Shown piece after piece: positions 355 through 32,309 of a stretch of 41,962 nt of DNA. The DNA is taken from positions 1 to 41,962 of the forward strand of contig CAIKHZ010000070.1 of assembly GCA_903827375.1 (NCBI GenBank), written 5' to 3'. How positions within the stretch are numbered: position 1 is the stretch's first letter; every line of letters begins with the position of its first letter. A program made the translations under genes and the position numbers. This DNA is from Akkermansiaceae bacterium. Lineage in GTDB: Bacteria > Verrucomicrobiota > Verrucomicrobiia > Verrucomicrobiales > Akkermansiaceae. The notes under the pieces were generated by a model that did not search any database, was not told where the DNA came from, and saw nothing but the letters and a program-made list of their open reading frames with translations.

Positions 355-2337
355 ATGTCCCCTGGTTTAATTATTGCTATTTTGCTGGCGTTTGTGCTGT
401 CACTCGGCCTGAACTGGTTGATGATGCGCTTGGCGCCGCACTTGGGGTTGATGGATGAGCCCGGGGAGCGGCGTATCCACCAGGCGGCGGTTGCGCGCGC
501 CGGTGGGATTGCCATCTGGTTGAGTTTTTTGTTCATTCTGGGTGGTGGACTGGTGAGTGGGTGGCTCAAAGTAGGTGGTGCGCTTTCGTGGCCATGGTTT
601 CGCGCCTTTGTTGCGAGTTCGGCGGTGTTGATGATCGCTGGATTTCTTGATGATCGCAAGGGGCTGTCACCCTGGGTTAAGCTTGGAGCTCATTTTCTCG
701 CGCCTTCGATCTTTTTCCTGATGCATCCCATGCATTTGGGGCTTTTTCCCCATGGTTGGCCTCTTGCCTACGATGGTCTGGCGTTTGTGATCTGGTGTGT
801 CATCCTTATTAATGCCTTCAACCTAATCGACGGCTTGGATGGTTTGTGTGGTGGCTTGGCGACGGTTTCGATATTGGGCATGGCGGGATTGGCGATCGCT
901 AACAAGCAGAATGAGGCAGCACTGATGTTGCTTATTATGGGTGGCTCCATTCTGGGATTTTTGAATTACAATATCAATCCAGCGCGCATTTTCCTAGGCG
1001 ATGCGGGGTCGATGCTGATCGGATTTTTTCTGGCCACGGCGGCCACAGAAGCGGTTGGTCGCAAGGCGGTTGTGGGCATGGTTTTGCTACCCATTGCGGT
1101 GGCAGGCGTTCCTCTGCTAGATGTGCTGCTGGCGATTTGGCGTCGCGGCATGCGACGGCTCTTGCTGTTACTGCGTGGGGAAAAGATCGTTGGCGGGATC
1201 TTTTCAGCCGACAGTGAGCACTTGCATCACCGCCTTCTGCATCAAACTGGTTCGCAACGCAAGGTGGCCATCACCATGCAATGCATCTCCGTCGTCCTGA
1301 CAATTCTGGCGTTTTTGCCCATGCTGCTTGGTAGTCGGGTGTATGTGGGATCGGTGGTGGGATTTTTTGTGGTCGCGTTGGTAGGATTGCGTGACTTGGC
1401 GCGGGTGGAGCTGGAGAACACCGGAAGCGTCATACACATGGCAATCAAGCGGCCGGGGCGCCGCCGCTGGGTGGCAGCCGTTCTATTTTTCTATGATCTG
1501 CTGGTGCTCACTGGCGGGTCGATTGCGGCGGTTCTTATCGAGACGAATTGGCTGACCTTGCACTACAAGGTGGAGCCAATGATCCGCTTTGTGATGCTAT
1601 TTGTAGTGCCTGGCGTGGTAGCTCTGTTTGCGATGAAGATTCACCAGCGACTCTGGGTGCGGGCGACGATACGTGATATCATGTCGTTGCATTTTTGGCT
1701 GCTGGCGGCCTCCTTGGTGACTTTCACTCTCTTCTCCTTGCAGTACAAGGGCATGGAGTGGATTTCCCTGCGGCTCTCACTTTTGAGTTACCTGTTTGCC
1801 ATTGGCGGAGTGGGTCTGCCTCGAGTCGCGCTTGACGTGATTCGGGACTTCGGGACAGAGGCACGTCATCGCTGGTCAGCGGGCGCTGACGATGGTGGCT
1901 ACGGGTCTGTGGTGGTGCTGGGGGCGGGGGATATGGGTACGTTGCTTCTCCTTCACTTTAAATCCAGTGACCAAGGAGCCTATCCAGGACTGAAAATGAT
2001 TGGCTTTATTGACGAGCAGAAGAGCCTGCATGGCCGCCGACTTAGGTCGTGGAAGGTGCTAGGCGGCCTTCAATTGATTCCCTCGCTGGTTGCTAAACGC
2101 GGTCTTAAGGGCATCATCTTAGCTATTGACGAGCCCTCTGAGGATTTGCTCGAACGCCTTGCAGCTATCGCTGACGAGCACCAACTTCGAGTCTATCGTT
2201 GGCGTGCGGAGCTGGAGCCGACATTGGGGCAGGCTGACGCAAGGCAGGACTGCCAAGGCCCCGACGTTGCTATGAGGTCGGCAGGAAATGGATGCGAGTT
2301 GTCCGCAAGCGGGCTGGAGGTGCGTGCAACCGCGTAG
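355..2337 (+). CDS. WecA/MraY-family sugar-1-phosphate transferase fused to a CapD-like membrane and Rossmann region
   Basis: The N-terminal ~350 residues form a polytopic phospho-N-acetylmuramoyl-pentapeptide/GlcNAc-1-phosphate transferase domain. Family motifs (numbered from ATG 355) are NAFNLIDGLDGL at about 153-164, the Asp-rich FLGDAGSM at about 213 and the HLHHRLL histidine motif at about 289. Known WecA/TagO enzymes move a sugar-1-phosphate from a UDP-sugar to undecaprenyl phosphate at the inner membrane to start surface-glycan synthesis. The protein is 660 residues, nearly twice the family length. The extra part has further membrane segments (about 372-500) and then a nucleotide-binding-like fold with VVVLGAGDMG at about 518, resembling the N-terminal half of FlaA1/CapD-type proteins without their C-terminal dehydratase. 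The frame is open upstream to a TTG at 301 and also has an ATG at 346; ATG 355 is chosen because the hydrophobic segment starts there. The donor sugar cannot be told from sequence. Confidence 0.88.
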   Translation: MSPGLIIAILLAFVLSLGLNWLMMRLAPHLGLMDEPGERRIHQAAVARAGGIAIWLSFLFILGGGLVSGWLKVGGALSWPWFRAFVASSAVLMIAGFLDDRKGLSPWVKLGAHFLAPSIFFLMHPMHLGLFPHGWPLAYDGLAFVIWCVILINAFNLIDGLDGLCGGLATVSILGMAGLAIANKQNEAALMLLIMGGSILGFLNYNINPARIFLGDAGSMLIGFFLATAATEAVGRKAVVGMVLLPIAVAGVPLLDVLLAIWRRGMRRLLLLLRGEKIVGGIFSADSEHLHHRLLHQTGSQRKVAITMQCISVVLTILAFLPMLLGSRVYVGSVVGFFVVALVGLRDLARVELENTGSVIHMAIKRPGRRRWVAAVLFFYDLLVLTGGSIAAVLIETNWLTLHYKVEPMIRFVMLFVVPGVVALFAMKIHQRLWVRATIRDIMSLHFWLLAASLVTFTLFSLQYKGMEWISLRLSLLSYLFAIGGVGLPRVALDVIRDFGTEARHRWSAGADDGGYGSVVVLGAGDMGTLLLLHFKSSDQGAYPGLKMIGFIDEQKSLHGRRLRSWKVLGGLQLIPSLVAKRGLKGIILAIDEPSEDLLERLAAIADEHQLRVYRWRAELEPTLGQADARQDCQGPDVAMRSAGNGCELSASGLEVRATA

Positions 2338-2360
2338 CTGCGTTTCTTCGCCGCAGGCCG

Positions 2361-2385
2361 TGGAAGCCGAGTCTCGCGGCTTCCA
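2361..2385. other. Perfect stem-loop in spacer
   Basis: TGGAAGCCG (2361-2369) pairs with CGGCTTCCA (2377-2385) around a seven-base loop, just after the transferase stop. There is no T tract, so it is not a standard intrinsic terminator. It may stabilise the 3' end or be a repeat relic. Confidence 0.5.
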
Positions 2386-2507
2386 GACCCTTCGATTGCC
2401 CCGCTTCGCGGTGCGATGTCAGTGAGGGCATCGCCAAGGGGCCAGGCTCGCAAGCGCTCGGTCCGTGTTCAACACCTCCCTCCGATAGAATGAACACCAC
2501 CGGCGAA

Positions 2508-2535
2508 CATCCAACATCGAACGCCCAACGTCGAA
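2508..2535 (+). repeat. Four tandem 7-bp units upstream of the helical-repeat gene
   Basis: The units CATCCAA, CATCGAA, CGCCCAA and CGTCGAA follow one another directly and end 15 bases before the start codon at 2551. They share the pattern C-R-Y-C-S-A-A. They sit in the leader of the next gene, and no function is visible. Confidence 0.6.
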
Positions 2536-2550
2536 CCTACGAGGCGAAAG

Positions 2551-4386
2551 ATGGGCCAGAATGCCTCATCTTTTTCTCTTGACTCTCTTTCGTCCGATGT
2601 TCGCAATTTTTTCCGTTCCGTGATTCGTTCGCTCTACTTGGCATTTAGTGACCGCTGGGCCAATCTGCCTCTCTACCTGCGTCTGGTCTTGGGGAGTGCT
2701 GCGCTTGCGGGGCTGGCATTGTTGGTGACCAAGCCGGGATATCATGGGTTCAGGGCGTGGAGGATGCAGCGCAATTTGGTGGCCGCCCGCAAAGCGATCG
2801 AAGAACTGCGGATGGATGACGCCCGCAATTTGTCGCTGTCGGTGCTGCATGCCGGCGACTCGCGGCTGGAGGCCTATCAGATTTTGGAGAAAGCGACTGC
2901 GGCGCTGCGCAATCCGATGCATGGGGATATTGCGCGGGTACTGATGGCGCATCCGCAAAGCACCGATGAAGACCGCATCAACGGGTTTCGGGGAGTTGCC
3001 AACGAGGTAGCTCTGGGCTTGGTCGGGCAAACATGGCGCAGCCTGCCAATCGAGCGCCAGCATGACCGGCGTTTTGCCCAGATATTTGCCGAGCGCCTGA
3101 TTGCCGAGCGGCGGGTTGGCGAAGCGGCGTCGGTGCTGCTGGCGGTGCCGGAGGCTGAGCGCGGCAGCCCAGTGCAGCGACGGTTGATTCAGTTGCTCAT
3201 CAGCAGTGGCAAACGCGAGGGCTACGATGAGGCCCAGCGGATGATTGCCGCGCAAATGCCCGGCGACGACTCACCGGCCGACATCGACGGGTGGCTCGGC
3301 TTGCTCGAAGCCATCCCGGTGCCGAGCTTGCAGCCGAAATCGCTCGCCCCTCTGCGAAGCTTTCTGGATCAGCCCGATGCTCCCGACAAGGGCCGCCGCT
3401 CGTTGATGCTTTCCCGCATCGACTATGCCGGCAATTTTTCCCGGGCTGGGGCGATTCTTGACGAAGCGATCGGGCGTTGGCAGGTGAGTGATCCGGTGGC
3501 TCTGGCGGGATTTTTGGGTGACCTCGGGCTGTATCAGCGGCTGCTGGATGCCATTCCTTCGCAGAGTGTCCAAAGCCATCCTGAGTTGCTTCCCCGGCTC
3601 CTTGAGGCCATGGAACACTGCGATGCTTGGCAAAGCGCCGCCGATCTCCTCGACACTCAGGCCGGCCTCATCCCCAATTTCGAGGTGCTGGCCCACCGCT
3701 CACTCGCCGCTGCCAAAACCGGCGATACCAGTGCCCGCACGCTGACGTGGAGCGCCGCCATGGCCGACGCCAAAGCCAGTGCTTCCCCCGGTGCCTATCT
3801 CAGAATCCACCGACTCGCCCGTGACGCCGGGATGACCGCCGAGGCCGAGGATGCAATGGTCGCCGCGATCCAACTGGGCCGCGGCCCATTGCCCCTTTAC
3901 GATGACCTCAAACCGCTGATCCGCTCGCTGGCCCAGCAAGGCCGCGACGATACGTTGCTGGAAATTTGTGCCAGCTACATGGTCTTCGAACCCGCCAATC
4001 CAGTTCTCTTCACCCAGTTTACCTACCTCGCCTGTCTGTTCCAAGTGATCGAACCTAAAACCCTCCTCAGGGCCATGCGCTCCCTTGCCACCGCTTTCCC
4101 CAACGACTTGACGATCCAATGCGTGCTGGCCACCGCCTTCCTCTGCAACGGCCAACCCGCCGAGGCAGCCGCGACCTTCGAGAGCCAGAAATTTGATTTT
4201 GCTAAACTGGCACCGGGTTTTCGCGCCGCGTACCTAACATCCCAGGTTCTCACCGGGCAAATCCCCATAGACGATCCACGCATCACGGATTTTCCTTGGA
4301 AATCCACCCAACCCTGCGAACGTAAAAAATTCAATCAGCTGCTCCACGAAACCGAACCCCAGCACTTCGACCCTGCCGATCACTAA
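2551..4386 (+). CDS. Membrane-anchored TPR-like helical-repeat protein, function unknown
   Basis: This is a 611-residue protein with a cytoplasmic-looking N-terminus of about 42 residues, one hydrophobic segment (about 43-61) and a long all-helical remainder. The remainder is rich in Ala, Leu and Arg, with recurring pairs of amphipathic helices such as AERRVGEAASVLLAVPEAER, as in tetratricopeptide proteins. The C-terminal part (NGQPAEAAATFESQKFDF) looks like a canonical TPR. TPR proteins of this layout usually serve as scaffolds, often in envelope or exopolysaccharide machinery. Its position 213 bases after a lipid-linked sugar transferase, on the same strand, is compatible with that but does not prove it. 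The ATG at 2551 has a modest purine-rich site (GAGGCG) 4-9 bases upstream, one of few in this window. A terminator-like hairpin follows at 4455. Confidence 0.8.
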   Translation: MGQNASSFSLDSLSSDVRNFFRSVIRSLYLAFSDRWANLPLYLRLVLGSAALAGLALLVTKPGYHGFRAWRMQRNLVAARKAIEELRMDDARNLSLSVLHAGDSRLEAYQILEKATAALRNPMHGDIARVLMAHPQSTDEDRINGFRGVANEVALGLVGQTWRSLPIERQHDRRFAQIFAERLIAERRVGEAASVLLAVPEAERGSPVQRRLIQLLISSGKREGYDEAQRMIAAQMPGDDSPADIDGWLGLLEAIPVPSLQPKSLAPLRSFLDQPDAPDKGRRSLMLSRIDYAGNFSRAGAILDEAIGRWQVSDPVALAGFLGDLGLYQRLLDAIPSQSVQSHPELLPRLLEAMEHCDAWQSAADLLDTQAGLIPNFEVLAHRSLAAAKTGDTSARTLTWSAAMADAKASASPGAYLRIHRLARDAGMTAEAEDAMVAAIQLGRGPLPLYDDLKPLIRSLAQQGRDDTLLEICASYMVFEPANPVLFTQFTYLACLFQVIEPKTLLRAMRSLATAFPNDLTIQCVLATAFLCNGQPAEAAATFESQKFDFAKLAPGFRAAYLTSQVLTGQIPIDDPRITDFPWKSTQPCERKKFNQLLHETEPQHFDPADH

Positions 4387-4454
4387 TTCCGGTCTCCTAA
4401 TTCCGCTCTCCAGACCTCAGACCGTCTTTCTTTACAACTCACAGCAACCGAATC

Positions 4455-4482
4455 AAGCGGGCCACACGGCTCGCTTTTTTTT
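4455..4482 (+). terminator. Rho-independent terminator
   Basis: AAGCGGGCC pairs with GGCTCGCTT (one mismatch) around a four-base loop and is followed by a run of eight T. It lies 69 bases after the stop of the helical-repeat gene and should end its transcript. The rest of the spacer to the tRNA gene (4483-4671) shows nothing I can name. Confidence 0.8.
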
Positions 4483-4671
4483 GTGCCCAGGCATCAGGAA
4501 AAATTCGCCATTCTCACCTGACATACTCCTTGACAGCCCTCCAGTCGCTTGCTTCCCTGTGGCCGCCTGTTGCCTGATCGGCACCGTTCAATCTGGTGAC
4601 TTTTCGGCGACCAGCCAGTGGCCCGGTAATTCTCCAGCGTCTTCCCAAACCACTGAAAATCAACCTATTAA

Positions 4672-4746
4672 GCCGCTGTAGCTCAGGGGTAGAGCAGCTC
4701 ATTCGTAATGAGCAGGTCGTCGGTTCGAATCCGACCAGCGGCTCCA
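4672..4746 (+). tRNA. tRNA-Thr (anticodon CGU)
   Basis: A full cloverleaf can be drawn. The acceptor stem GCCGCTG (4672-4678) pairs with CAGCGGC (4736-4742). The D stem is GCTC/GAGC and the anticodon stem GCTCA/TGAGC encloses TTCGTAA, giving anticodon CGT (4704-4706), which reads ACG. The T stem is GTCGG/CCGAC with loop TTCGAAT. Discriminator T is followed by an encoded CCA (4744-4746). A weak hairpin (AAACCC/GGGTTT) follows at about 4749-4770 without a T run. Confidence 0.97.
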
Positions 4747-4802
4747 TAAAACCCGATGTTTCAAGGGTTTCCGCGTAGGATTCCCAGCGCTCCTCACCAC
4801 CC

Positions 4803-6305
4803 ATGACCCCTGTTAAACAAGCGCCATTCCATTCACATCGGCGCTCACAGAGCGCCGCTACAATCGATTTCAGCCGCATTGGGTTGGTCTGCCTGGTCGC
4901 ATTCCTGGTTTCGCTGAGCATTGCCGCCCACGTCGCCGCCGAGGCGTACGTACCGGTCAATGAGAAGCCGCCGGCACTGGCACGTGAGTTCCGCGGGGCA
5001 TGGCTTGCCTGCATCTACAATCTGGATTGGCCCAGCGCGAAGGGCCTGAGTGCGGCCAGCCAGCAGACGGAATTGCGCACCATTCTCGACAAACTCGTGG
5101 CCCTCAAAATGAACGCGCTCATTTTCCAGGTGCGCCCACATGGCGACGCGCTCTACGCTTCTGCCCTCGAACCATGGAGCCCTTGGCTCACTGGCATCAT
5201 GGGCCGCTCGCCCGGCTACGATCCGCTTGCCTATTGCATTCGCGAGGCACATGCCCGGGGCATCGAGGTGCATGCTTGGTTCAATCCGTTCCGCGCATTG
5301 CCTAACAACACGCTTGCTGCCTCCATCGACCACGTCACCCGTGCCGCGCCCCAGCTCACGAAACGCTACGGGACGATGACTTGGTGCGATCCCTCCTTGG
5401 CCGATACCCGTGGCCGGGCGCTGCGGGCCATCCTTGACGTGGTGCGCCGCTATGACGTTGATGGGGTTCATTTGGATGACTACTTCTATCCGTATCCGAC
5501 GGGCCATCTGGAGTTTGCCGACGGCAGAAGCCCGGCCCAGCGCCGTGCTTGCATCGATGGCTTTGTCAGCAGTCTCTACACCGCGGTGAAACAGCAAAAA
5601 CCGTGGGTCCGAGTCGGCATCAGTCCCTTTGGCATCTGGCGACCGGGGGTGCCGGCAGGCACCGAGGCGAGCCTCGACGCCTACGAGCAGCTTGCCTGTG
5701 ATTCGCGCAAGTGGTTGAAAAACGGTTGGGTTGATTACCTCGCCCCGCAACTTTACTGGCGGATCTCCCCCCAAAAGCAAAGTTTTCCGGCCCTTCTGAC
5801 ATGGTGGCGGCAGCAGGGGACTCGTCCCGTTTGGCCGGGCATTGCCACCGAACGCATCAGTTCCAGCGATGACCCTGGCCGCCCAGCTTCGGAGATTATC
5901 CGCCAGATCGAACTCACCCGAAAAATCGGCAATAACTCAAACGGCCACCTCCATTGGAGCGTCAAGAGCCTGCAGCGTAACCGCGGCGGCATCGCCACCC
6001 TCTTGGCACGCACCTACACTCAGCCCTGCGCCATTCCAGCCATGCCATGGCTCAGCACGCAAGCCCCCGCCGCACCCGGTGTGTCCGCCACCTTGCGTGG
6101 CTCTAACACCATCATCCACTGGGTCACCGATGCCTCCGCCGCAAAAATCGCCGTCCAGGCCCGCGTCGGGTCCACTTGGCGGACCGTGAAAATTGTCCCG
6201 GCTTCTGCGGACGGGCTGACGCTGGCGCGGGCCGAGGCGATCGCGGTGAGTGCCTTGGATCGCTTCGGCAATGCCAGTCCGCCCAAGACACTTGGTCTCA
6301 AATGA
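4803..6305 (+). CDS. Secreted GHL10-family (UPF0748/YngK-like) glycosyl-hydrolase-like protein
   Basis: This 500-residue protein matches the glycosyl hydrolase-like 10 (DUF187) pattern. It has EFRGAWLACIYNLDWPS near 62-78, ALIFQVRPHGDALY near 104-117, HAWFNPFRA near 155, the acidic strand YDVDGVHLDDYFYP at about 216-230 and GISPFGIWR near 270. The residues from about 415 to the end look like a small Ig/Fn3-type domain. Family members act on extracytoplasmic glycans, and exact substrates are mostly unknown. A signal-anchor-like segment (LVCLVAFLVSLSIAAHVAA) begins at residue 28, not at the N-terminus. The first ~27 residues encode dispersed repeat copy B (HRRSQSAAT). An in-frame TTG at 4884 would give a normal signal peptide, so the true start is uncertain. 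No Shine-Dalgarno sequence is visible at either site. Confidence 0.85.
   Translation: MTPVKQAPFHSHRRSQSAATIDFSRIGLVCLVAFLVSLSIAAHVAAEAYVPVNEKPPALAREFRGAWLACIYNLDWPSAKGLSAASQQTELRTILDKLVALKMNALIFQVRPHGDALYASALEPWSPWLTGIMGRSPGYDPLAYCIREAHARGIEVHAWFNPFRALPNNTLAASIDHVTRAAPQLTKRYGTMTWCDPSLADTRGRALRAILDVVRRYDVDGVHLDDYFYPYPTGHLEFADGRSPAQRRACIDGFVSSLYTAVKQQKPWVRVGISPFGIWRPGVPAGTEASLDAYEQLACDSRKWLKNGWVDYLAPQLYWRISPQKQSFPALLTWWRQQGTRPVWPGIATERISSSDDPGRPASEIIRQIELTRKIGNNSNGHLHWSVKSLQRNRGGIATLLARTYTQPCAIPAMPWLSTQAPAAPGVSATLRGSNTIIHWVTDASAAKIAVQARVGSTWRTVKIVPASADGLTLARAEAIAVSALDRFGNASPPKTLGLK
4839..4862 (+). repeat. Dispersed repeat, copy B, inside a coding N-terminus
   Basis: This is the same 20-mer as at positions 1-20. 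Here the palindrome extends to CGGCGCTC (4839-4846), loop ACA, GAGCGCCG (4850-4857). It is translated if ATG 4803 is the true start. A 24-base match (CGCTCACAG through TACAATC) is shared with copy C near 38383-38406. Confidence 0.85.
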
Positions 6306-21808: not shown

Positions 21809-22801
21809 TTAGGGAGTCTTGAGGAGGCGTTCGGCAAGGGCCTTGAGGTCTTCGACGGGAATGGCAAAACTCTCGGCGCGGTTGGCGCGGGCGATGTTCA
21901 TGCCGATGCAGCGGCCTTCAAGATCTAACAGCGGTCCGCCGACAATGGATCTTGCACCGAGGATGTCGTGCTGGAGGATCCGTGGAAAGCCACTCCGTCG
22001 TTCGGAAAACGCGCCACTCATGGCATCGTTGCGGTTCAATTCCTCGCTCATTTCGTTGCGGGCCATGAGCCGCACGTCAGCGGATTTCTCCTCTTGGTTA
22101 CGCCGGAAAGTGAGCTTGGCGATCGTCCCGGCCTTGCGGTCTTTGAGCACGGCACCCACCTCATCGAGTTTGGTAACTGGCTTGCCGTCAATGGCTAGAA
22201 TCACGTCACCTTTTTGCAGGCCGGCCTCTTTGGCACCGCTCTTTTCCTGGACGTCATCGATTTCCAGTTCCTTCGCATCGAGCTTGAGTTTCACGCCGAG
22301 GGCAGCGCCGCCAGATGTGGGGATTTCGCGGATCTTCGCGCTGATGATCCCGGCGAGCACCCGCCGATGGGTGCGGGTGGTGGTGCCGTTGGCCACCACC
22401 CAGGTGCCTTGGCTCACGGCACTGGTTGGAGCGTAGGCCACCGGGGTCAGGTCGCTGGCATCGATCTTGATTAGGGCCACGTCCCACTGATCGTCGATGG
22501 CGAGAATCTTGGCTTCAGGATATTTTTTCTCATCGACGGTCACACCGAGTTTTTTGATGGTTTTGAGCTCGCTCGCTTTAGTTAGGATATGACCGGTGGG
22601 GGAAATGACAACTCCGCAGATAGCCTCGGCTCGGCCGTCGTAGATGATAGCGCTGCATTTTTGGATGACCTGGCGTTGGGCGTCGAAGGCGGCCAGGACG
22701 GTGGGGCCTGTGGTGCGGAAGGCGGTTTCGAGGCTTTGGTCGGCAGGGGCGTGGGCCACGATGGCGAGGATGATGGCGGGGATGATGAGTTTAGCGTGCA
22801 C
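21809..22801 (-). CDS. Catalytically degenerate HtrA-like protein with PDZ inserted inside the protease fold
   Basis: This secreted protein (330 residues from GTG 22801, signal peptide LIIPAIILAIVAHAPA) resembles trypsin-like S1C proteases. In the segment ILTKASEL, Ser77 stands where TAAH normally supplies His. DDQWDVALIKI keeps the Asp (D107). Near the C-terminus SIVGGPLLDLEGRCIGMNIA matches the GNSGGPL region, but the nucleophile Ser is Val287. A PDZ domain (about 165-245, SGAKEAGLQKGDVILAIDGK) lies between the Asp and pseudo-Ser segments, not at the C-terminus. The protein is therefore probably a non-proteolytic binding partner. GTG 22801 overlaps the upstream protease stop by 11 bases; an ATG at 22846 would overlap more and bury the signal peptide. 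Coupling to the active protease gene suggests joint function. Confidence 0.8.
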   Translation of the reverse strand: MHAKLIIPAIILAIVAHAPADQSLETAFRTTGPTVLAAFDAQRQVIQKCSAIIYDGRAEAICGVVISPTGHILTKASELKTIKKLGVTVDEKKYPEAKILAIDDQWDVALIKIDASDLTPVAYAPTSAVSQGTWVVANGTTTRTHRRVLAGIISAKIREIPTSGGAALGVKLKLDAKELEIDDVQEKSGAKEAGLQKGDVILAIDGKPVTKLDEVGAVLKDRKAGTIAKLTFRRNQEEKSADVRLMARNEMSEELNRNDAMSGAFSERRSGFPRILQHDILGARSIVGGPLLDLEGRCIGMNIARANRAESFAIPVEDLKALAERLLKTP

Positions 22802-23850: not shown

Positions 23851-24900
23851 TCAGGTCCGGCGCAAATAGCCTGCCACCTGCCGACGCTGCGATGCCGGTG
23901 GCAGGTCGGCACTGGCAAAGGCAATGACAGCTCCCAGGCCTGCCGCGTGTTGACCACCGAGGCGCGGTTCAACAAAGAGTTCAGGAAAGCGATAGGTCGC
24001 ACGCCGACGCCGCCAGCCAATGATGCCTACACTCGCGGCGAGCACGCTGGCAATCAACAGGCCGGGTATCGCCAGATCCAGCGCCATCGGGCGCCAGCGG
24101 GCCCAGCGCTCGGCCAACGAAGAAGAACTTTTTGCGAGTTTGGCAGCTCGTGCCCGTGAGAGCTTGGGTCCATCGGCCTCGTCGCTGATGCCGTGGAGCA
24201 TTTGTTCCATCCGATAGATCCGCTTCGTCAGCTGGATCGTGAAAGCCTCCAACTGCGCTGGCGGGCTGGCTTTTTGGCTGGCCTGGTAGATCGCGCTTTG
24301 GAGAGCTTGGCGCTGCTCTGTGGCCGGGATGGCCTCTGGCATTGACGGGCTTGGGTAGAGCACAGTTTGTTGCGGGGCACCGAGAAAATAGAATACCAAG
24401 AGGGTTGGGCGCTCTGTGCCGAAGCAGCGCTCGCATAATTCTTCGCCACGAACGTCGCCAGGAATCTCCTGATCCTTGGCAAATATATAAATGTAAAGGT
24501 CGATGGGCGAATCGGCCGCATGGGCCTTGAGCAAGGCGAGTTGCTCGTGCGTCGCCCCTTCATCAAGCAATCCCTGCGGGTCTATCAGAAAACCCTCCGG
24601 CTTGGCATCAAAATAGGCCGTTAAAAATTTTTCGGGAACCGGCACAACGGGTGACTGTGGCGCAGTGAGACCTGCTGTGGGCACGCCTCCACCAAGGTCT
24701 GGAGGACTCACTGCAGCGCCCGGTTGCGACTCGCCATCTGCCGCAGCGCCTAATATCCGCTCGCCAGCCAGCCAGCCGTTGGCTTCCATGGCCTTGCGTT
24801 GCGCCTCGCTCCAGTTTGGCAGCGGAGCGCTATTGCGGGCAGTGGCCCAGGGTGCGGCCAGCCACGCTCCAACCACCAACCCCTGCCATGCCTTCATCAT
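23851..24900 (-). CDS. Membrane protein with divergent TPM-like extracytoplasmic domain
   Basis: This 349-residue protein has a probable signal peptide (first ~22 residues), a Pro/Gly-rich linker and a domain at about 105-215. The domain (FLIDPQGLLDEGATHEQLAL, then DLYIYIFAKDQEIP and PTLLVFYFLGAPQQTVLYPS) follows the order of strands in TPM domains but is diverged. A helical stretch, one membrane helix near 275-297 (LAIPGLLIASVLAASVGIIG) and a basic cytoplasmic tail complete it. TPM proteins include photosystem-repair phosphatases in plants and poorly known bacterial envelope proteins. The TPM call is my inference from pattern and from the adjacent TPM gene. Its ATG overlaps that gene's stop as ATGA (24897-24900), indicating translational coupling. 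Confidence 0.7.
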   Translation of the reverse strand: MMKAWQGLVVGAWLAAPWATARNSAPLPNWSEAQRKAMEANGWLAGERILGAAADGESQPGAAVSPPDLGGGVPTAGLTAPQSPVVPVPEKFLTAYFDAKPEGFLIDPQGLLDEGATHEQLALLKAHAADSPIDLYIYIFAKDQEIPGDVRGEELCERCFGTERPTLLVFYFLGAPQQTVLYPSPSMPEAIPATEQRQALQSAIYQASQKASPPAQLEAFTIQLTKRIYRMEQMLHGISDEADGPKLSRARAAKLAKSSSSLAERWARWRPMALDLAIPGLLIASVLAASVGIIGWRRRRATYRFPELFVEPRLGGQHAAGLGAVIAFASADLPPASQRRQVAGYLRRT

Positions 24901-25535
24901 CGCTCAACCTCCTCTGGGCCGGATGGGCGTCGGCGGGTTGCTGCGGATCGGCTGGCCGACGGCAATAGCTTGCGGGCGAAATGCTGCGGATTGCGGCCGG
25001 CCTGATTGCTGCGTTTGCGCAGGATCCAGGATAATTGTTCGAGTGCCTTGATCATGCCGTCGCCATAACGCCCTTCCAGCCAGTGGGAATGGGCACGTGC
25101 CAAGCAATCAAAGGTATCTTCCTCTTCCAGAAATGGCTCCAGCAGGTAACCAACGCTCAGGCCCGCTGCCTTGGTTTCCGGATCAATCGTCAGTAAAATG
25201 CCCGCAGCGTTGGACGTTCCGGGCGGCAAATCTGCAAACTTTGCACGGTTAAGCAGCCAAAAGCCAAAGCGCCGCAAGTGAGCTGCCTCCCCCAGCGACC
25301 CAGTGTATATCGCCACAAATACCTGCGGGAAGCGCTTCGTGATTTGCCTCATTGCCACCTCCACTGGCTCGCGCTCATCGTGGCGCAGCAAGCCCGCCGT
25401 GTCCGCCAGGCACCGCATCCGCATGTCCCGCCCTCCAAATTGCACGTCGGCATCTCCAATCGTGAAGCCACAATGCGGGCAGTCCTCCGCTGCACGGTGG
25501 ATATTTTGCACGCATCGAGGACATTTCATTACCAT
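24897..25535 (-). CDS. TPM-domain protein with N-terminal zinc ribbon
   Basis: This 212-residue protein begins with a zinc ribbon (C5-x2-C8 and C19-x2-C22). A TPM-type domain follows at about 55-180, with RFPQVFVAIYTGSL, FGFWLLNRAKF, GILLTIDPETKAAGLSVGYL and ARAHSHWLEGRYGDGMIKAL. The GxxxxGYxLE-like centre and the terminal RYxDGM helix are typical of the family. There is no signal peptide or membrane helix, so it is probably cytoplasmic. It is the first gene of a - strand run: this gene, TPM-like membrane protein, HtrA-like protease, degenerate HtrA. The second ATG at 25529 (MKCPRC) is an equally good start. The spacer 25536-25909 to the divergent sulfatase shows no further gene. Confidence 0.8.
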   Translation of the reverse strand: MVMKCPRCVQNIHRAAEDCPHCGFTIGDADVQFGGRDMRMRCLADTAGLLRHDEREPVEVAMRQITKRFPQVFVAIYTGSLGEAAHLRRFGFWLLNRAKFADLPPGTSNAAGILLTIDPETKAAGLSVGYLLEPFLEEEDTFDCLARAHSHWLEGRYGDGMIKALEQLSWILRKRSNQAGRNPQHFARKLLPSASRSAATRRRPSGPEEVER

Positions 25536-25909
25536 CGGCCACCGCTATCCTGCAAAATCCAAGGTAATCCGTCAAAGCGAAAATTCAGCCAATGTGAAAT
25601 GCCGCCAGGGGCACCTCGTCAATAAAAATTCTGACAGTTGGAGACTCCTCAGGGGGAGGTAACTCTGGAAACTTGGCTCGTCCGCTATGCCTCTGGCTCA
25701 GACCCTCAGCCATCTGGAAATTAGCCGGATCCCTGCCTGCATCACCCCGAGCAAATGTTACCATGCGCGGACTGACCCCATGTGGTAATGTGGATCATCT
25801 GCAAACACGAACGAGAACAGAGGTGCAAAAATTTGTCATGAAAACCATCATCAGACTCCTTGAAATAAAAATGATGCTGTCGTTAGGCCAGGATTCCCCG
25901 TGCGTCTTG

Positions 25910-27370
25910 ATGTCTTGGGTCTCGGGTCTGAGGGGAACCCTCGCTAGGGCGTGCCGCCGCCGCGCCACCGTGTGGCTGTGCGTCACGCTCGGCTGCGCCG
26001 CTACCTCGCACGCCGCGGAACGCAAACCAAATTTCCTCTTTATCTACACCGACGACCAGCGCTGGGACGCGATGGGCGTCGTCCAGCGCGAGCAGGCCGG
26101 GCATGCTCGCTTTCCGTGGTTCAAGTCGCCCAACATGGACCGCTTGGCTGGCAGCGGTGTGCGCTTCCGCAATGCCTTCGCCACCTGCTCGTTGTGTGCT
26201 CCGAGTCGAGCCGCTTTCCTAACGGGTTGTTACAACCACCTAAATGGGATTACTAACAATCATACCGAGTTTCCGGTGGATACGGTCACTCATGCCTCGC
26301 TGCTGCGTGCTGCTGGCTACACGACCGCTTACATTGGCAAGTGGCATATGGGTGAACAGCGTGGACAGCGCCCCGGTTTCGATTACTCTGCGAGCTTCAT
26401 TGGTCATGGTCGGTACAACGACTGTCCGGTCGAAGTCAACGGTGTTTCCACGCCTACCAAAGGGTGGATTGACGACGTCAGCACTGACTTTGCGATTGGA
26501 TGGATGAAGCAGAATCGCGAGCGGCCGTTTTCGTTGGTTGTGGGTTTCAAGAGTCCTCACAGCCCGCGCGGCGGCAAAAATCTCCCCGAGCGCTTGCGCA
26601 ACCTCTATGCCGGAGAAACCAGCAGGCCAGCACCAAATTTCGGCGTGTCAGCCATCTTCCACCCGCCCGACCCCGCCACAGGCAAGCAGCCTCAAGGGCT
26701 CTCTGACAATGCGATCCATCTCGACTACCTCCGCCACGTCACAGGTGCCGATGAAAATCTTGGTAGATTGCTAGATTCTCTCGATGAGCTCGGTCTGGCA
26801 GAAGACACAGTGGTCGTTTACACCAGCGATAACGGCTACTATCTAGGTGAACATTGCCTCGGCGATAAGCGCTCGATCTATGAAGAGTCACTGCGCATCC
26901 CAATGCTGGTGCGTTACCCACGCCTCTTCGGCAAGGGCCAGGTCATCGACGAGATGGTTCTCAACATCGACCTCGCCCCGACGCTTCTCGATTTGGCTGG
27001 CGTGGCCGTGCCCGAAGCCATGCAGGGTGTGAGTTGGAAAGCTCTTGCCACCGGGCAGAAGCTGGCGAATTGGCGCCAGTCGTTTCTGGCAGAGTATTTT
27101 TATGAAAACGGCGGTGGAGACACTCCTACATTGATAGGCGTCCGCAGCGCCAACGCTAAACTCGTGACCTACCCCGGCCATCCCGAGTGGACTGAAGTTT
27201 TTGATCTAGCAGTTGATCCATACGAGTTGAAAAACTTGGCAGCGGATCCCGCGGTCACCGCGAAACTCAGTGCCGAGCTCGACACCCAAATGAAGGCCGT
27301 CAACTATGCCGTGCCTCCCAACGTTGACAAACCACCGCTACCCAAACCTGCAGCTAGAACGCCGAAATAG
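25910..27370 (+). CDS. Secreted sulfatase (Cys-type, formylglycine-dependent)
   Basis: This 486-residue type I sulfatase should hydrolyse sulfate esters, probably on polysaccharides, after oxidation of Cys96 to formylglycine. The signature is C96-A-P-S-R100 in CSLCAPSRAAFLTG. Metal ligands include D48-D49 in YTDDQ and the later YTSDNGYYLGEH. GKWHMG is also present. The signal peptide has an unusually Arg-rich n-region (RACRRRATVWLCVTLGCAA, cut near SHA). The frame is open to 25673, with other ATGs at 25766, 25838 and 25871. ATG 25910 is chosen as nearest to the signal peptide, without a Shine-Dalgarno site, so the start is uncertain. No sulfatase-maturing enzyme lies in this window. Substrate is unknown; sulfatases are abundant in Verrucomicrobia and Planctomycetes that feed on sulfated glycans. 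Confidence 0.92.
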   Translation: MSWVSGLRGTLARACRRRATVWLCVTLGCAATSHAAERKPNFLFIYTDDQRWDAMGVVQREQAGHARFPWFKSPNMDRLAGSGVRFRNAFATCSLCAPSRAAFLTGCYNHLNGITNNHTEFPVDTVTHASLLRAAGYTTAYIGKWHMGEQRGQRPGFDYSASFIGHGRYNDCPVEVNGVSTPTKGWIDDVSTDFAIGWMKQNRERPFSLVVGFKSPHSPRGGKNLPERLRNLYAGETSRPAPNFGVSAIFHPPDPATGKQPQGLSDNAIHLDYLRHVTGADENLGRLLDSLDELGLAEDTVVVYTSDNGYYLGEHCLGDKRSIYEESLRIPMLVRYPRLFGKGQVIDEMVLNIDLAPTLLDLAGVAVPEAMQGVSWKALATGQKLANWRQSFLAEYFYENGGGDTPTLIGVRSANAKLVTYPGHPEWTEVFDLAVDPYELKNLAADPAVTAKLSAELDTQMKAVNYAVPPNVDKPPLPKPAARTPK

Positions 27371-28955: not shown

Positions 28956-31900
28956 ATGAACCGTGCCTATCAAATCCTTGTCGCTGCGGTCGCCCTTTTG
29001 CTGGCGGCGACTGGCATCCGGGCAGACACCGGTGCCTATCGCAATCTCGGATATATGTACCTTTCGCCACTGCCAGGCGCTGAGTACTCCCCGACGCAAA
29101 CGAAGTTTGTGCTGGTTCGTTTTACGAATGTGGATCCGACGCTGGTCACCAATCTGGCCCAGTTCATTCAGGTGAGCGGTGCCAGTAGCGGCATTCACTC
29201 GGGCACGACCAAGATTGCCAGCGACAAGCGAACCGTCATCTTTGAAATGACTAACACGTTCCAGTCTAACGAATTGGTCACCGTCTCTCTGGCTCCGCAG
29301 ACGTCAGCCGGAACTGTCCAACCCTATCAATACACGTTTATGATCTCCGGCCACATGCCGGATAACCCTGTCATCACTGCCCGTGGTGACAACCCGCCTA
29401 ATGAAGCCAAAGAGAAGGCGTTTGACGGCGATGTGTCCACGAAATGGTATGATGGAGTGGCACCCAACGGAAGCACCATTTCCAGCTGGATCCAGTATAT
29501 GTATCCCGGAACTGATACCCACTATGTCACCAGTTACTCGATCACTTCGGCCAACGACGTTCCGGCACGCGATCCCATGGACTGGCGTTTCTACGGGGTG
29601 AATTCAGCCGGTAATCTGACATTGCTGGATAGCCGGACCGGCCAAACGTTCGCCAGTCGCGGCCTCAAAAATACGTACTCCTTCACAAATCTAACTGCCT
29701 ACAGTGGCTACCGCTTGTGGATCACCAAAGTCGCCGATCCCACCACTGCCGGCGCGGTGCAATTGGCGGAACTCGGCTTCATTGAACCCACCGGCACGAT
29801 TCTCCGCGAGTACTGGACCGGTATTGCCGGCACTGCTGTGAGTGATCTGACGTCAAACGCCAATTATCCAAGCACTCCCACCGCTCGCGATTACCTCTTC
29901 AGCTTTGAGGCGCCGACGGATTGGGCGGATAGCTACGGCACCCGGGTTCGAGGCTACCTCACAGCACCCAGCTCCGGCACTTATGTGTTTTGGATCGCCA
30001 GCGATGATAACAGCGAACTGTGGCTGAGCACCAATGCCGATCCTGCTAACAAAACTAAGATTGCCTATGTGCCCGGATGGACGAATTCACGACAATGGTC
30101 CAATTATGCCGAACAAAAATCCGTGGCGATCAATTTGGTCGCCGGACAAAAATATTATGTTGAGGCATTGCAGAAGGAGGGCGGTGGCGGCGACAACCTC
30201 GCCGTCGGCTGGGCCAAACCCGGCCAAGCCACCAGTGCCCCTTCTGAAGTGGTTCCCGGTTGGGTGCTCTCGCCGTGGGTCATCACCGCTAGCGTCGCGG
30301 CACAGCCCCCATTGGCAGCGCCGGCGCCACCGCTTGGCAATTCGCCGGCGTCGCCCGGCAAGGCTGGCATCATGCCCAACGGGGTGTCGGTCCCTAGCAA
30401 CTTCCCATTCATCAGCATCACCACCAACAACAATCCGTGCGCTGATCCCATCTTCATTGACAACCGTGGTGGCGGCGGCCAGTGCTACAACGTGATCTTT
30501 GATAACTCCGGCTCGCCCATCTGGTACCAGCGGATGCCCGACGAACGGCGCGACATGAAAGTCCAGCCTAACGGTGTGCTCACCCTGTTGGCCAGGGACA
30601 AGGGCCAGTACTTCTACGGGATGAACACCCACTACGAGAAGATTGCGGAATACTGGACCAAAAATGGCTATAGCGTGGATGAGCACGAACTGCAAATGCT
30701 CGCGGATGGAACGTATTTCCTCATCGGCTTGAACGGCCAGACCGTGGACCTGAGTCGTTATGTTTCCGGGGCCGGCACCAGTGTCGGCATCACCGAGGAT
30801 TGCATCCAGCAATTCACCCCGTCCGGCGAACTCATCTTCCAGTGGCGGGCTTGGGACCACCTCGATCCCGCTGGCCAGAATACCGTCGTGGACCCGCTAA
30901 ATCCAGGGGATTTCACCCACATGAACGCCATTTCAGTGGATAGTGACGGCCACATCCTGCTCTCTAGCCGCAATACCAGTGAGGTCACTAAGATCAATCG
31001 CGACACAGGTGAGATTATCTGGCGCCTCGGCGGCACCCACAACCAGTTCACCTATCTCAATGATCCACTCAACGGCCAACGCAATCAGCATGCCGTGCGT
31101 GCTCTGGGCAACAACCACTACACGCTCTTTGACAATGGCAACGGCCACAGTCCCCAGGTGTCCCGCGGCGTCGAATACGTGGTGGACCCCGTCGCCATGA
31201 CTGCCACCCTCGTCTGGCAATATTTGGAGGCCCCGACGAACCTGTTCACCTACTACATGGGCGATGTTCAGCGTCTGCCTAACGGAAATACCCTGATCAA
31301 CTGGGTGATAGGGGGCTATCCCAAGCTCACCGAGGTTCGCCCCGATGGAACCAAGGCCTTCGAGATGAACTGGGTGAGTCAATATGAGGCCTATCGGGTC
31401 TGGCGTTGCCCGTGGCAGGGGGTTGCCCTCAAGCCTTATCTGATATTGGAAGCCTATCCCGACAACGTGACGCTGCTGTTCAATCAGTTCGGCGACAGCA
31501 GCGTGGTGACCTATCGCATCTACGGCGGCACCTCGCCACAGCCCACCACCCTGCTGGGCACCTCGGGCACAACCATGAAATGCCTGAGCAATCTGACGAG
31601 TGGCCAGACGTATTACTTCCGCGTCACCGCCGTCAACAAGAACGGCGTGGAAGGTCCTTATTCTAACGAGGAGAACGTTGCCGTTAATATCATCAAACCC
31701 GGCCAAAATATGGTTGCCAACGGCGATTTCTCCGGCGGCACGGCGTCGTGGTCGTCATCGGTCACAAGTCCGGCTGTTGCGGCTTGGTCCACTACCAGCG
31801 GTTACAGCAGTTATGTAATCACCAATGGCGGCAGCAGCACCGCAAGCATCCAGTTGAAGCAAACCGGTCTTCCCATGGTCTTGGGGAATGCCTACGTCTT

Positions 31901-32309
31901 TGAGTTTGACGCATGGACGAGCAGCGGCACACGCACCATTGAAGCCAAGGTGATGCAGAACGGCTCTTCCAACACCAACTACAGCAGCACCAGGATCCCG
32001 AGTCTCACGGCTACCAAGCAGCACTTTCGCTACGTCTTCACCATGACAGCCGCCACGGATTTGAGTTCCATGATGGTTTTCAATGCGGGGGGCTCAACCA
32101 AATCCGTCTATCTTGACAACATCTCACTGTTCAACCCGCCGCCGGGCGACCTCAACATGGATGGCAAGGTGGACCTGCTTGACCTCAAACTCATGGGCAC
32201 CGATTGGCGAAAACAGCAGTCCGGACTCACCTCGGACATCGACGGCAACGGGAAAGTGGATTTTGCGGATTTTGGAATTCTTGGCGATAACTGGTCGGCT
32301 TCCCCCTGA
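28956..32309 (+). CDS. Secreted multidomain protein: discoidin-like, PA14, arylsulfotransferase-like, Fn3, carbohydrate-binding and dockerin modules
   Basis: This 1117-residue exported protein has a signal peptide (about 1-23). An SbsA/Ig-like segment comes first, then an F5/8-C-like domain (about 137-275, AFDGDVSTKWYD). A PA14 domain follows (about 280-445, YVFWIASDDNSELWLS) and an ASST/PF14269-type beta-propeller (about 460-835). The propeller strings include EHELQMLADGTYFLIG, HMNAISVDSDGHILLSSRNT, INRDTGEIIWRLGG and NQHAVRALGNNHYTLFDNG. An Fn3 domain, a CBM4/9-like domain and a type I dockerin-like end (two Ca-binding loops, DLNMDGKVDLLDLK and DIDGNGKVDFADFG) complete it. Arylsulfotransferases move sulfate between phenolic compounds, but many secreted ASST-like propellers have no tested activity. 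The dockerin may be a cohesin ligand or a terminal repeat; no cohesin gene is in the window. It lies 1.6 kb from the sulfatase. Confidence 0.88.
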   Translation: MNRAYQILVAAVALLLAATGIRADTGAYRNLGYMYLSPLPGAEYSPTQTKFVLVRFTNVDPTLVTNLAQFIQVSGASSGIHSGTTKIASDKRTVIFEMTNTFQSNELVTVSLAPQTSAGTVQPYQYTFMISGHMPDNPVITARGDNPPNEAKEKAFDGDVSTKWYDGVAPNGSTISSWIQYMYPGTDTHYVTSYSITSANDVPARDPMDWRFYGVNSAGNLTLLDSRTGQTFASRGLKNTYSFTNLTAYSGYRLWITKVADPTTAGAVQLAELGFIEPTGTILREYWTGIAGTAVSDLTSNANYPSTPTARDYLFSFEAPTDWADSYGTRVRGYLTAPSSGTYVFWIASDDNSELWLSTNADPANKTKIAYVPGWTNSRQWSNYAEQKSVAINLVAGQKYYVEALQKEGGGGDNLAVGWAKPGQATSAPSEVVPGWVLSPWVITASVAAQPPLAAPAPPLGNSPASPGKAGIMPNGVSVPSNFPFISITTNNNPCADPIFIDNRGGGGQCYNVIFDNSGSPIWYQRMPDERRDMKVQPNGVLTLLARDKGQYFYGMNTHYEKIAEYWTKNGYSVDEHELQMLADGTYFLIGLNGQTVDLSRYVSGAGTSVGITEDCIQQFTPSGELIFQWRAWDHLDPAGQNTVVDPLNPGDFTHMNAISVDSDGHILLSSRNTSEVTKINRDTGEIIWRLGGTHNQFTYLNDPLNGQRNQHAVRALGNNHYTLFDNGNGHSPQVSRGVEYVVDPVAMTATLVWQYLEAPTNLFTYYMGDVQRLPNGNTLINWVIGGYPKLTEVRPDGTKAFEMNWVSQYEAYRVWRCPWQGVALKPYLILEAYPDNVTLLFNQFGDSSVVTYRIYGGTSPQPTTLLGTSGTTMKCLSNLTSGQTYYFRVTAVNKNGVEGPYSNEENVAVNIIKPGQNMVANGDFSGGTASWSSSVTSPAVAAWSTTSGYSSYVITNGGSSTASIQLKQTGLPMVLGNAYVFEFDAWTSSGTRTIEAKVMQNGSSNTNYSSTRIPSLTATKQHFRYVFTMTAATDLSSMMVFNAGGSTKSVYLDNISLFNPPPGDLNMDGKVDLLDLKLMGTDWRKQQSGLTSDIDGNGKVDFADFGILGDNWSASP

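Follow-up and report, generated by a model that had tools for sequence, protein, structure and literature searches.

Introduction

Allostery in HtrA proteases, which passes from the PDZ domain through loop L3 to the LD loop of a neighbouring subunit, is known mainly from homotrimers. PDZ domains embedded in a protease occur in the S41 C-terminal processing proteases (Prc, CtpB), where the embedded PDZ controls access to the active site; these have a different protease fold and are still catalytic. The pseudo-HtrA MamO keeps the catalytic His and Asp, and the PDZ of the plant HtrA Deg8 is not inside the protease fold. A review (PMC11642142) places L3 of DegS at residues 176-189 and describes the PDZ as acting through this loop, with L3 Arg178 contacting Pro161, Tyr162 and Leu164 in the LD loop of the next subunit (LD') and the same cluster including Thr167, Gln191, Phe220 and Ile232. 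According to PMC4794232, MamO has Thr in place of the catalytic Ser and is needed non-catalytically for MamE-dependent proteolysis, physical interaction having gone undetected there; the word PDZ is absent from the main text of that paper. The canonical S1C order, as given in PMC3640471, is a protease domain followed by zero to three C-terminal PDZ domains, and the plant proteins Deg5 and Deg8 are described there as two HtrAs, one without a PDZ and one with, which act synergistically.

Here we describe an HtrA-like pseudoprotease encoded beside an active HtrA on an Akkermansiaceae contig (CAIKHZ010000070.1; "the window" refers to the whole stretch of 41,962 nucleotides analysed). It resembles DegS, AlgW and DegQ in its chymotrypsin fold (Z 22-25 in the top structural matches), its Trypsin_2 homology, its PDZ type, the Arg of L3 and the Gln that precedes the nucleophile position by ten residues, but unlike them it lacks the triad, carries its PDZ inside L3 and has a separate active partner. 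It shares with MamO and MamE the pairing of a pseudo-HtrA with an active HtrA, although MamO, unlike the protein described here, has a TauE transporter domain and binds metal. Some active partners found here resemble the PDZ-less member of Deg5/Deg8, although both plant proteins keep the catalytic Ser. Prc and CtpB have an embedded PDZ in common with it, but are catalytic and of another fold.

A gene under purifying constraint

The pseudoprotease gene lies on the minus strand at 21809..22801, with a GTG start at 22801, 330 residues and a stop codon at 21809-21811. Residue numbers refer to P0001, the translation of the minus-strand frame 22846-21809, which ends at residue 345 and exceeds the numbering of the original prediction by 15 (its Ser77 is S92 and its Val287 is V302). 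The GTG overlaps the stop of the upstream HtrA gene by 11 nt, and a start codon at that same 11-nt overlap is present in 52 of 76 named relatives (GTG in 50, ATG in 2); GTG 22801 is the likely translation start, in which case the coordinates first proposed, 21809-22801, are exact. A probable signal peptide (22742..22801, minus strand; residues 16-35) was recognised by eye from a hydrophobic core and an A-P-A motif before D36, and the protein is probably exported.

Relatives were collected in two ways. A scan of named contigs with patterns taken from the window's genus confirmed 105 stretches, of which the best 80 were kept, and alignment A3 (n = 78) excludes three partial loci of these 80 (L119, L123, L134). 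Searches of whole genomes spanning the window's own phylum gave a second, more divergent set of 74 members, which shares some species with A3 and excludes nine duplicate loci. Against five close relatives the pseudoprotease has dN/dS values of 0.11-0.16 (0.07-0.16 for its active partner), low enough to indicate a functional protein and not a decaying copy. A sequencing or frameshift artefact was rejected, both on these values and because the architecture recurs in the 78 and 74 aligned sequences of the two overlapping sets.

A PDZ domain inside the predicted protease fold

The original prediction described an HtrA-like fold with a full PDZ domain placed before the pseudo-nucleophile segment, and profile, alignment and structural evidence all agree with it. 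Pfam Trypsin_2 matches P0001 in two stretches (54.4 bits, cut-off 27.6), the better of which sets profile positions 3-108 on residues 78-173, and PDZ_2 matches residues 182-260 (54.5 bits, cut-off 27). Residues 78-171 align to residues 67-162 of the DegQ structure 4a8a and, beyond the PDZ, residues 285-342 align to DegQ 170-232, the latter being weak alone at 7.8 bits; the phmmer output also held unrelated WD40 chains, which were taken as chance. The first part of the fold, defined by the Trypsin_2 match and the AlphaFold2 model, thus occupies 22322..22741 (residues 36-175), the PDZ 22067..22303 (residues 182-260) and the second part 21812..22006 (residues 281-345), all on the minus strand; this second part contains Q292, the GGP motif and an IARxxR motif and is supported by the DegQ alignment, AlphaFold2 and structure comparison.

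The AlphaFold2 model of the pseudoprotease alone (78 sequences) has a mean pLDDT of 85.4 and a pTM of 0.75; its last 60 residues, which contain the last strands of the second barrel, have pLDDT values of 81-96 in blocks of ten. In VIA-align 2 the model matched AlgW (7co5_B, 53-275) across 187 residues over 17-310 (Z 24.6, rmsd 2.3) and DegS (2rce_I) across 187 residues over 1-309 (Z 23.8, rmsd 4.4), 2rce_I being a 198-residue DegS chain from which the PDZ is deleted. These matches, to AlgW and to a PDZ-less DegS, indicate that the segment after the PDZ completes the protease barrel, as the original prediction requires of the C-terminal segment. All 50 Foldseek matches listed for the model were HtrA structures; their whole-chain TM-scores were low (0.32-0.42) with large rmsd, which is expected if the PDZ sits elsewhere than in those structures. 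In the predicted structure, the chymotrypsin fold is split in two by an entire PDZ domain. The alternative that two genes or a circular permutation had been mistaken for an insertion was discarded, since the fold is continuous in both the AlphaFold2 model and the structure comparison.

Homologues have the same domain order: no pseudoprotease among the 78 of A3 has a gap in the PDZ columns, and these columns are at least 93% filled in all 74 of the whole-genome set. The protein therefore has the chymotrypsin fold and HtrA-type sequence of the S1C family (Trypsin_2 above cut-off, AlgW Z 24.6, DegS Z 23.8), while its PDZ, at residues 182-260 within the fold, is not C-terminal to the protease domain; the contrast first drawn with the canonical order, a PDZ after the protease domain, holds against PMC3640471. 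Among the matches listed, no NCBIfam or Pfam model was specific to the family, and the Do family HtrA profile TIGR02037 scored 119.1 bits in three stretches, below its cut-off of 416.2.

Loss of the catalytic triad

In A3 the catalytic His position, S92 in the window (22571..22573, minus strand), is Ser in 77 sequences and Thr in one and forms part of a conserved K-x-[S/T]-E motif, the Asp position, D122 (22481..22483, minus strand), is Asp in 78 of 78, and the nucleophile position, V302 (21941..21943, minus strand), is Val in 35, Met in 21, Thr in seven, Ile in six, Gln in four, Glu in three, Ala in one and Cys in one, never Ser; the following glycine is kept in all 78. The second set (n = 74) gives a similar picture, with Ser in 71, Thr in two and Glu in one at the His position, Asp in 72 and Asn in two at the Asp position, and Met (27), Val (18), Ile (10), Cys (8), Thr (5), Ala (2), Leu (2), Gln (1) and Asn (1) at the nucleophile position, again never Ser. 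No homologue with an intact triad turned up: the 78 and 74 rows have no His at the His site and no Ser at the nucleophile site. The His-Asp-Ser triad of S1C is thus absent, and from its residues the protein is a predicted pseudoprotease, bearing out the earlier claim that His and nucleophile were lost and Asp kept. Of the two positions singled out for conservation, Ser77 (S92) is indeed kept (77 of 78), but Val287 (V302) itself is not; only its non-Ser state is. Cys occupies the former nucleophile position in eight of the 74, several of them distant or fused members (e.g. L034, L044, L040, L051), and the His position of Cys-bearing members is Ser (Glu in L168).

Several other residues are conserved at the level of structural residues: around the former His, Lys90 is present in 78 of 78 and Glu93 in 76, alongside Ser or Thr at position 92 in all 78, and Gln292 and Arg323 are each invariant. 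This conservation (D122 also 78 of 78) could reflect a new catalytic site, in which K90-x-S92-E93 and D122 replace the triad, but S92 is replaceable by Thr or Glu, and we know of no enzyme with such a K-x-S-E plus Asp layout; we give this reading very little credence. It is also improbable, if somewhat less so, that the protein has been repurposed, in the manner of MamO, to bind a ligand or metal and has only a loose connection with proteolysis. Near-invariant charged residues (K90, E93, D122, R323) at or near the former active site are compatible with such a role, for which MamO (PMC4794232) offers a precedent, but the conserved pairing and fusion with HtrA described below speak against a loose tie, and the MamO profile NF040961 reaches only 28.3 bits against P0001, below the NCBIfam cut-off of 800. 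No TauE domain was found in P0001 among eight Pfam families up to E 1, and the chain ends at residue 345, after the barrel.

Pairing and fusion with an active HtrA

The active HtrA partner, P0002 (22791..23771, minus strand), has a probable signal peptide, an intact His-Asp-Ser triad and one C-terminal PDZ (Trypsin_2 93.4 bits, PDZ_2 54.6 bits in Pfam), and its AlphaFold2 model has a pLDDT of 93.6 and a pTM of 0.86. In 76 of the 80 named loci (best 80 of 105), the gene directly upstream encodes an HtrA with GDSGGP, and the remaining four (L102, L119, L123, L134) begin at a contig end. The whole-genome set of 74 has a linked active HtrA in 71: upstream on the same strand in 63, fused in six, downstream in one (L050, with separate genes in reversed order) and, by BLAST, upstream in L166. 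Two more (L020, L028) lie at contig ends, and one is a true orphan (L156, reread as L183, in genome G268), as the 14 kb read contain no active HtrA; its pseudoprotease may use an HtrA encoded elsewhere. A GDSGG-type motif served to select the active partners, which fixes their Ser by construction; the His of the 76 named partners is likewise fixed, since an AAHV or ASHV motif was also required of them. The independent results are the His in the other 70 and the Asp in all 146. Alignment A4 comprises 54 of the 76 named partners plus that of the window.

In eight genomes the two proteins are joined in a single ORF, with nine such fusions in all. Seven run from active to pseudo, namely L040 (805 aa), L044 (880), L049 (896), L164 (603), L167 (824 read), L168 (819) and L180 (806), and two run from pseudo to active, L181 (519) and L182 (637), both from family f38; fusions in both orders indicate independent fusion events. 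In an unrooted tree built from 149 protease domains by a quick method (with long-branch warnings, and lacking L180-L182), one branch has the 74 pseudo sequences on one side and the 70 active ones on the other (SH-aLRT 99 for both), and given this split the copies and fusions appear to go back to a single ancient pair. The genetic link with an active paralogue (76/80, 71/74 and nine fusions), together with lineages whose active partners have no PDZ, strongly supports the connection, first suggested in the original prediction, between the pseudoprotease and the active protease just upstream. Adjacency and fusion point to a functional linkage, not to a mechanism.

The pair does not belong to a larger conserved operon, a possibility that was rejected because the other neighbours are not constant. 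Among the named loci (best 80 of 105, with about 4 kb on both sides available in 55 of the 80), the genes downstream in the window (2-oxoacid:ferredoxin oxidoreductase) were found in one of 80, the upstream gene for a protein without a Pfam match (window 23851-24900, minus strand) in 28 and the upstream TPM-domain gene (window 24897-25535, minus strand) in 26. Further along, the window encodes a sulfatase (25673-27370) near a 1117-aa protein (28956-32309, plus strand) with arylsulfotransferase, PA14, carbohydrate-binding and dockerin-like matches.

The PDZ is distributed unevenly between the partners. With the profile used here, a C-terminal PDZ is present in 54 of 70 active ORFs and absent from 16, of which 11 are separate partners from one genus, in frames of 249-273 residues. 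Pfam found no PDZ in the four tested of these 11 (L153, L155, L160, L162), in the active partners L027 and L111, or in the active halves of the fusions L164, L049 and L167, where the only PDZ is that of the pseudo half; in L050, also among the 16, PDZ_2 scores just under its cut-off. As the PDZ columns of the pseudoproteases are filled throughout, the member lacking a PDZ in these sets is always the active one. The active partner in the window carries its own PDZ.

Distribution

Alignment A1 matches 175 of 240 genomes of the window's order at 1e-50, spread over 36 of 41 genera. A search with P0001 gave some match at 0.001 in 38 of 39 genomes, its own included, and an orthologue (48-75% identity) is present in 21 of 24 other genomes of the same genus. 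Outside the order, matches occur in three of six genomes searched from family f38. In a phylum sample of 288 genomes, 181 have some match at 1e-12 and 31 at 1e-60 or better, the latter all within the order or family f38; the weaker matches listed mostly come from other HtrA or PDZ proteins that align over a single domain. Named members come from Akkermansiaceae and other Verrucomicrobiota, including Luteolibacter, Haloferula, Rubritalea, Roseibacillus and many metagenome bins. In the genus with PDZ-less partners, 14 genomes match and at least 20 do not.

The window's own genome holds three copies: that of the window, a separate pair (contig C285) and a fusion (C65). What seems, from its sequence, to be a second, different HtrA/pseudo-HtrA pair (L185) lies on contig C92 of this genome, where the gene for a 697-aa HtrA with GNSGGP (2193-4283, plus strand) is separated by 3 nt from the next, whose 273-aa trypsin-like product (4287-5105, plus strand) seemingly lacks the triad, when judged by eye, and shows no PDZ insert.

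Communication residues and proposed role

The position of the insertion can be read against DegS, whose catalytic Ser we take to be residue 201. With the catalytic Ser of DegQ at 187, counting back sets DegS Arg178 at DegQ 164 and, as DegQ 162 pairs with P0001 171, R173 (22328..22330, minus strand) is the Arg178 equivalent. The PDZ begins a few residues beyond R173, inside L3, and Q292, which precedes the nucleophile position by ten residues, corresponds to Gln191. In A3 the donor Arg is kept in 77 of 78 and the Gln in 78 of 78, and the receiver positions are changed: Tyr162 to Ser or Thr in 76, Phe220 to Ala in 71 and Ile232 to Glu in 74, in a less certain register hand-counted through the DegS sequence. 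In the active partners the Ile232 equivalent falls in a poorly aligned column from which nothing was drawn, L3 is apparently about six residues shorter by hand count, and an Arg at an L3-like place occurs in 57 of the 76 named partners and 28 of the other 70. These counts (57/76 and 28/70) do not support a strict complementarity with no L3 Arg in the active partner. With a PDZ in the window's partner and in 54 of 70 active ORFs, and an L3-like Arg in many partners, a strict division into donor and receiver fails in places.

These parts fit a subunit that no longer catalyses but has retained the sending half of HtrA allostery, with a sensor placed in the sending loop. Our preferred reading, to which we assign a probability of roughly 0.6, is that the pseudoprotease is a subunit dedicated to the active HtrA: it bears a PDZ, is itself not catalytic, acts in sensing or recruitment and regulates the active protease, probably within a joint assembly. 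An ancestral HtrA protease would have lost its His and Ser and taken a PDZ domain into L3, with the active HtrA encoded immediately upstream as its dedicated partner. The pseudosubunit would probably co-assemble with the active subunit, and its PDZ would bind peptides from the C-termini of misfolded proteins or of signal proteins. With the PDZ located in L3, ligand binding would move this loop and push Arg173 into the LD loop of the active neighbour, which would thereby be switched on; in addition or instead, the pseudosubunit may hold substrate for the active one. We infer the physical complex, the PDZ ligand and the direction of regulation alike, and the protein may serve as a substrate adaptor, as an allosteric subunit or as both. 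A narrower form of this proposal, which we put forward tentatively, is a single mixed trimer in which the pseudosubunit is the allosteric donor, its L3-grafted PDZ driving the Arg into the LD loop, and is the sole sensor where the partner has no PDZ; were this true, the fusions in both orders would fix the stoichiometry.

The same features can be set against two other roles. The changed receiver positions would suit an inhibitory or poison subunit, one that joins the trimer and holds the active HtrA inactive as long as its own PDZ has no ligand, and the start/stop overlap (52/76) may reflect coupled translation and matched amounts, but PDZ-less partners would then have no obvious activating input, and we regard this as rather improbable. 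A free-standing substrate adaptor, acting outside the HtrA trimer with a PDZ and an inert cleft that bind substrates for transient handover, is unlikely, yet the strongest of the rival readings: the carboxylate-loop signature of the PDZ is kept (L, I or M and then G, in 73 of 74 rows each), the inert cleft is kept and the pairing is conserved. Fusions in both orders and the conservation of R173 and Q292, equivalents of DegS residues used in communication within the trimer, favour a stable joint assembly instead.

Discussion

Paired pseudoproteases are already known, and it is the PDZ-in-L3 architecture and the family that appear to be new; the open-access literature, searched with a few terms, yielded no description of a pseudo-HtrA with a PDZ in L3 and an active partner, though one may exist. 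That nearly every pseudoprotease gene lies next to an active HtrA gene or is fused with it suggests a split of sensing and cutting between two partner proteins. Sender and receiver are seemingly separated into two genes, with the sensor domain placed in the very loop that transmits the signal, and this would offer a natural test of subunit roles without engineered mixed trimers, in a common but little-studied order.
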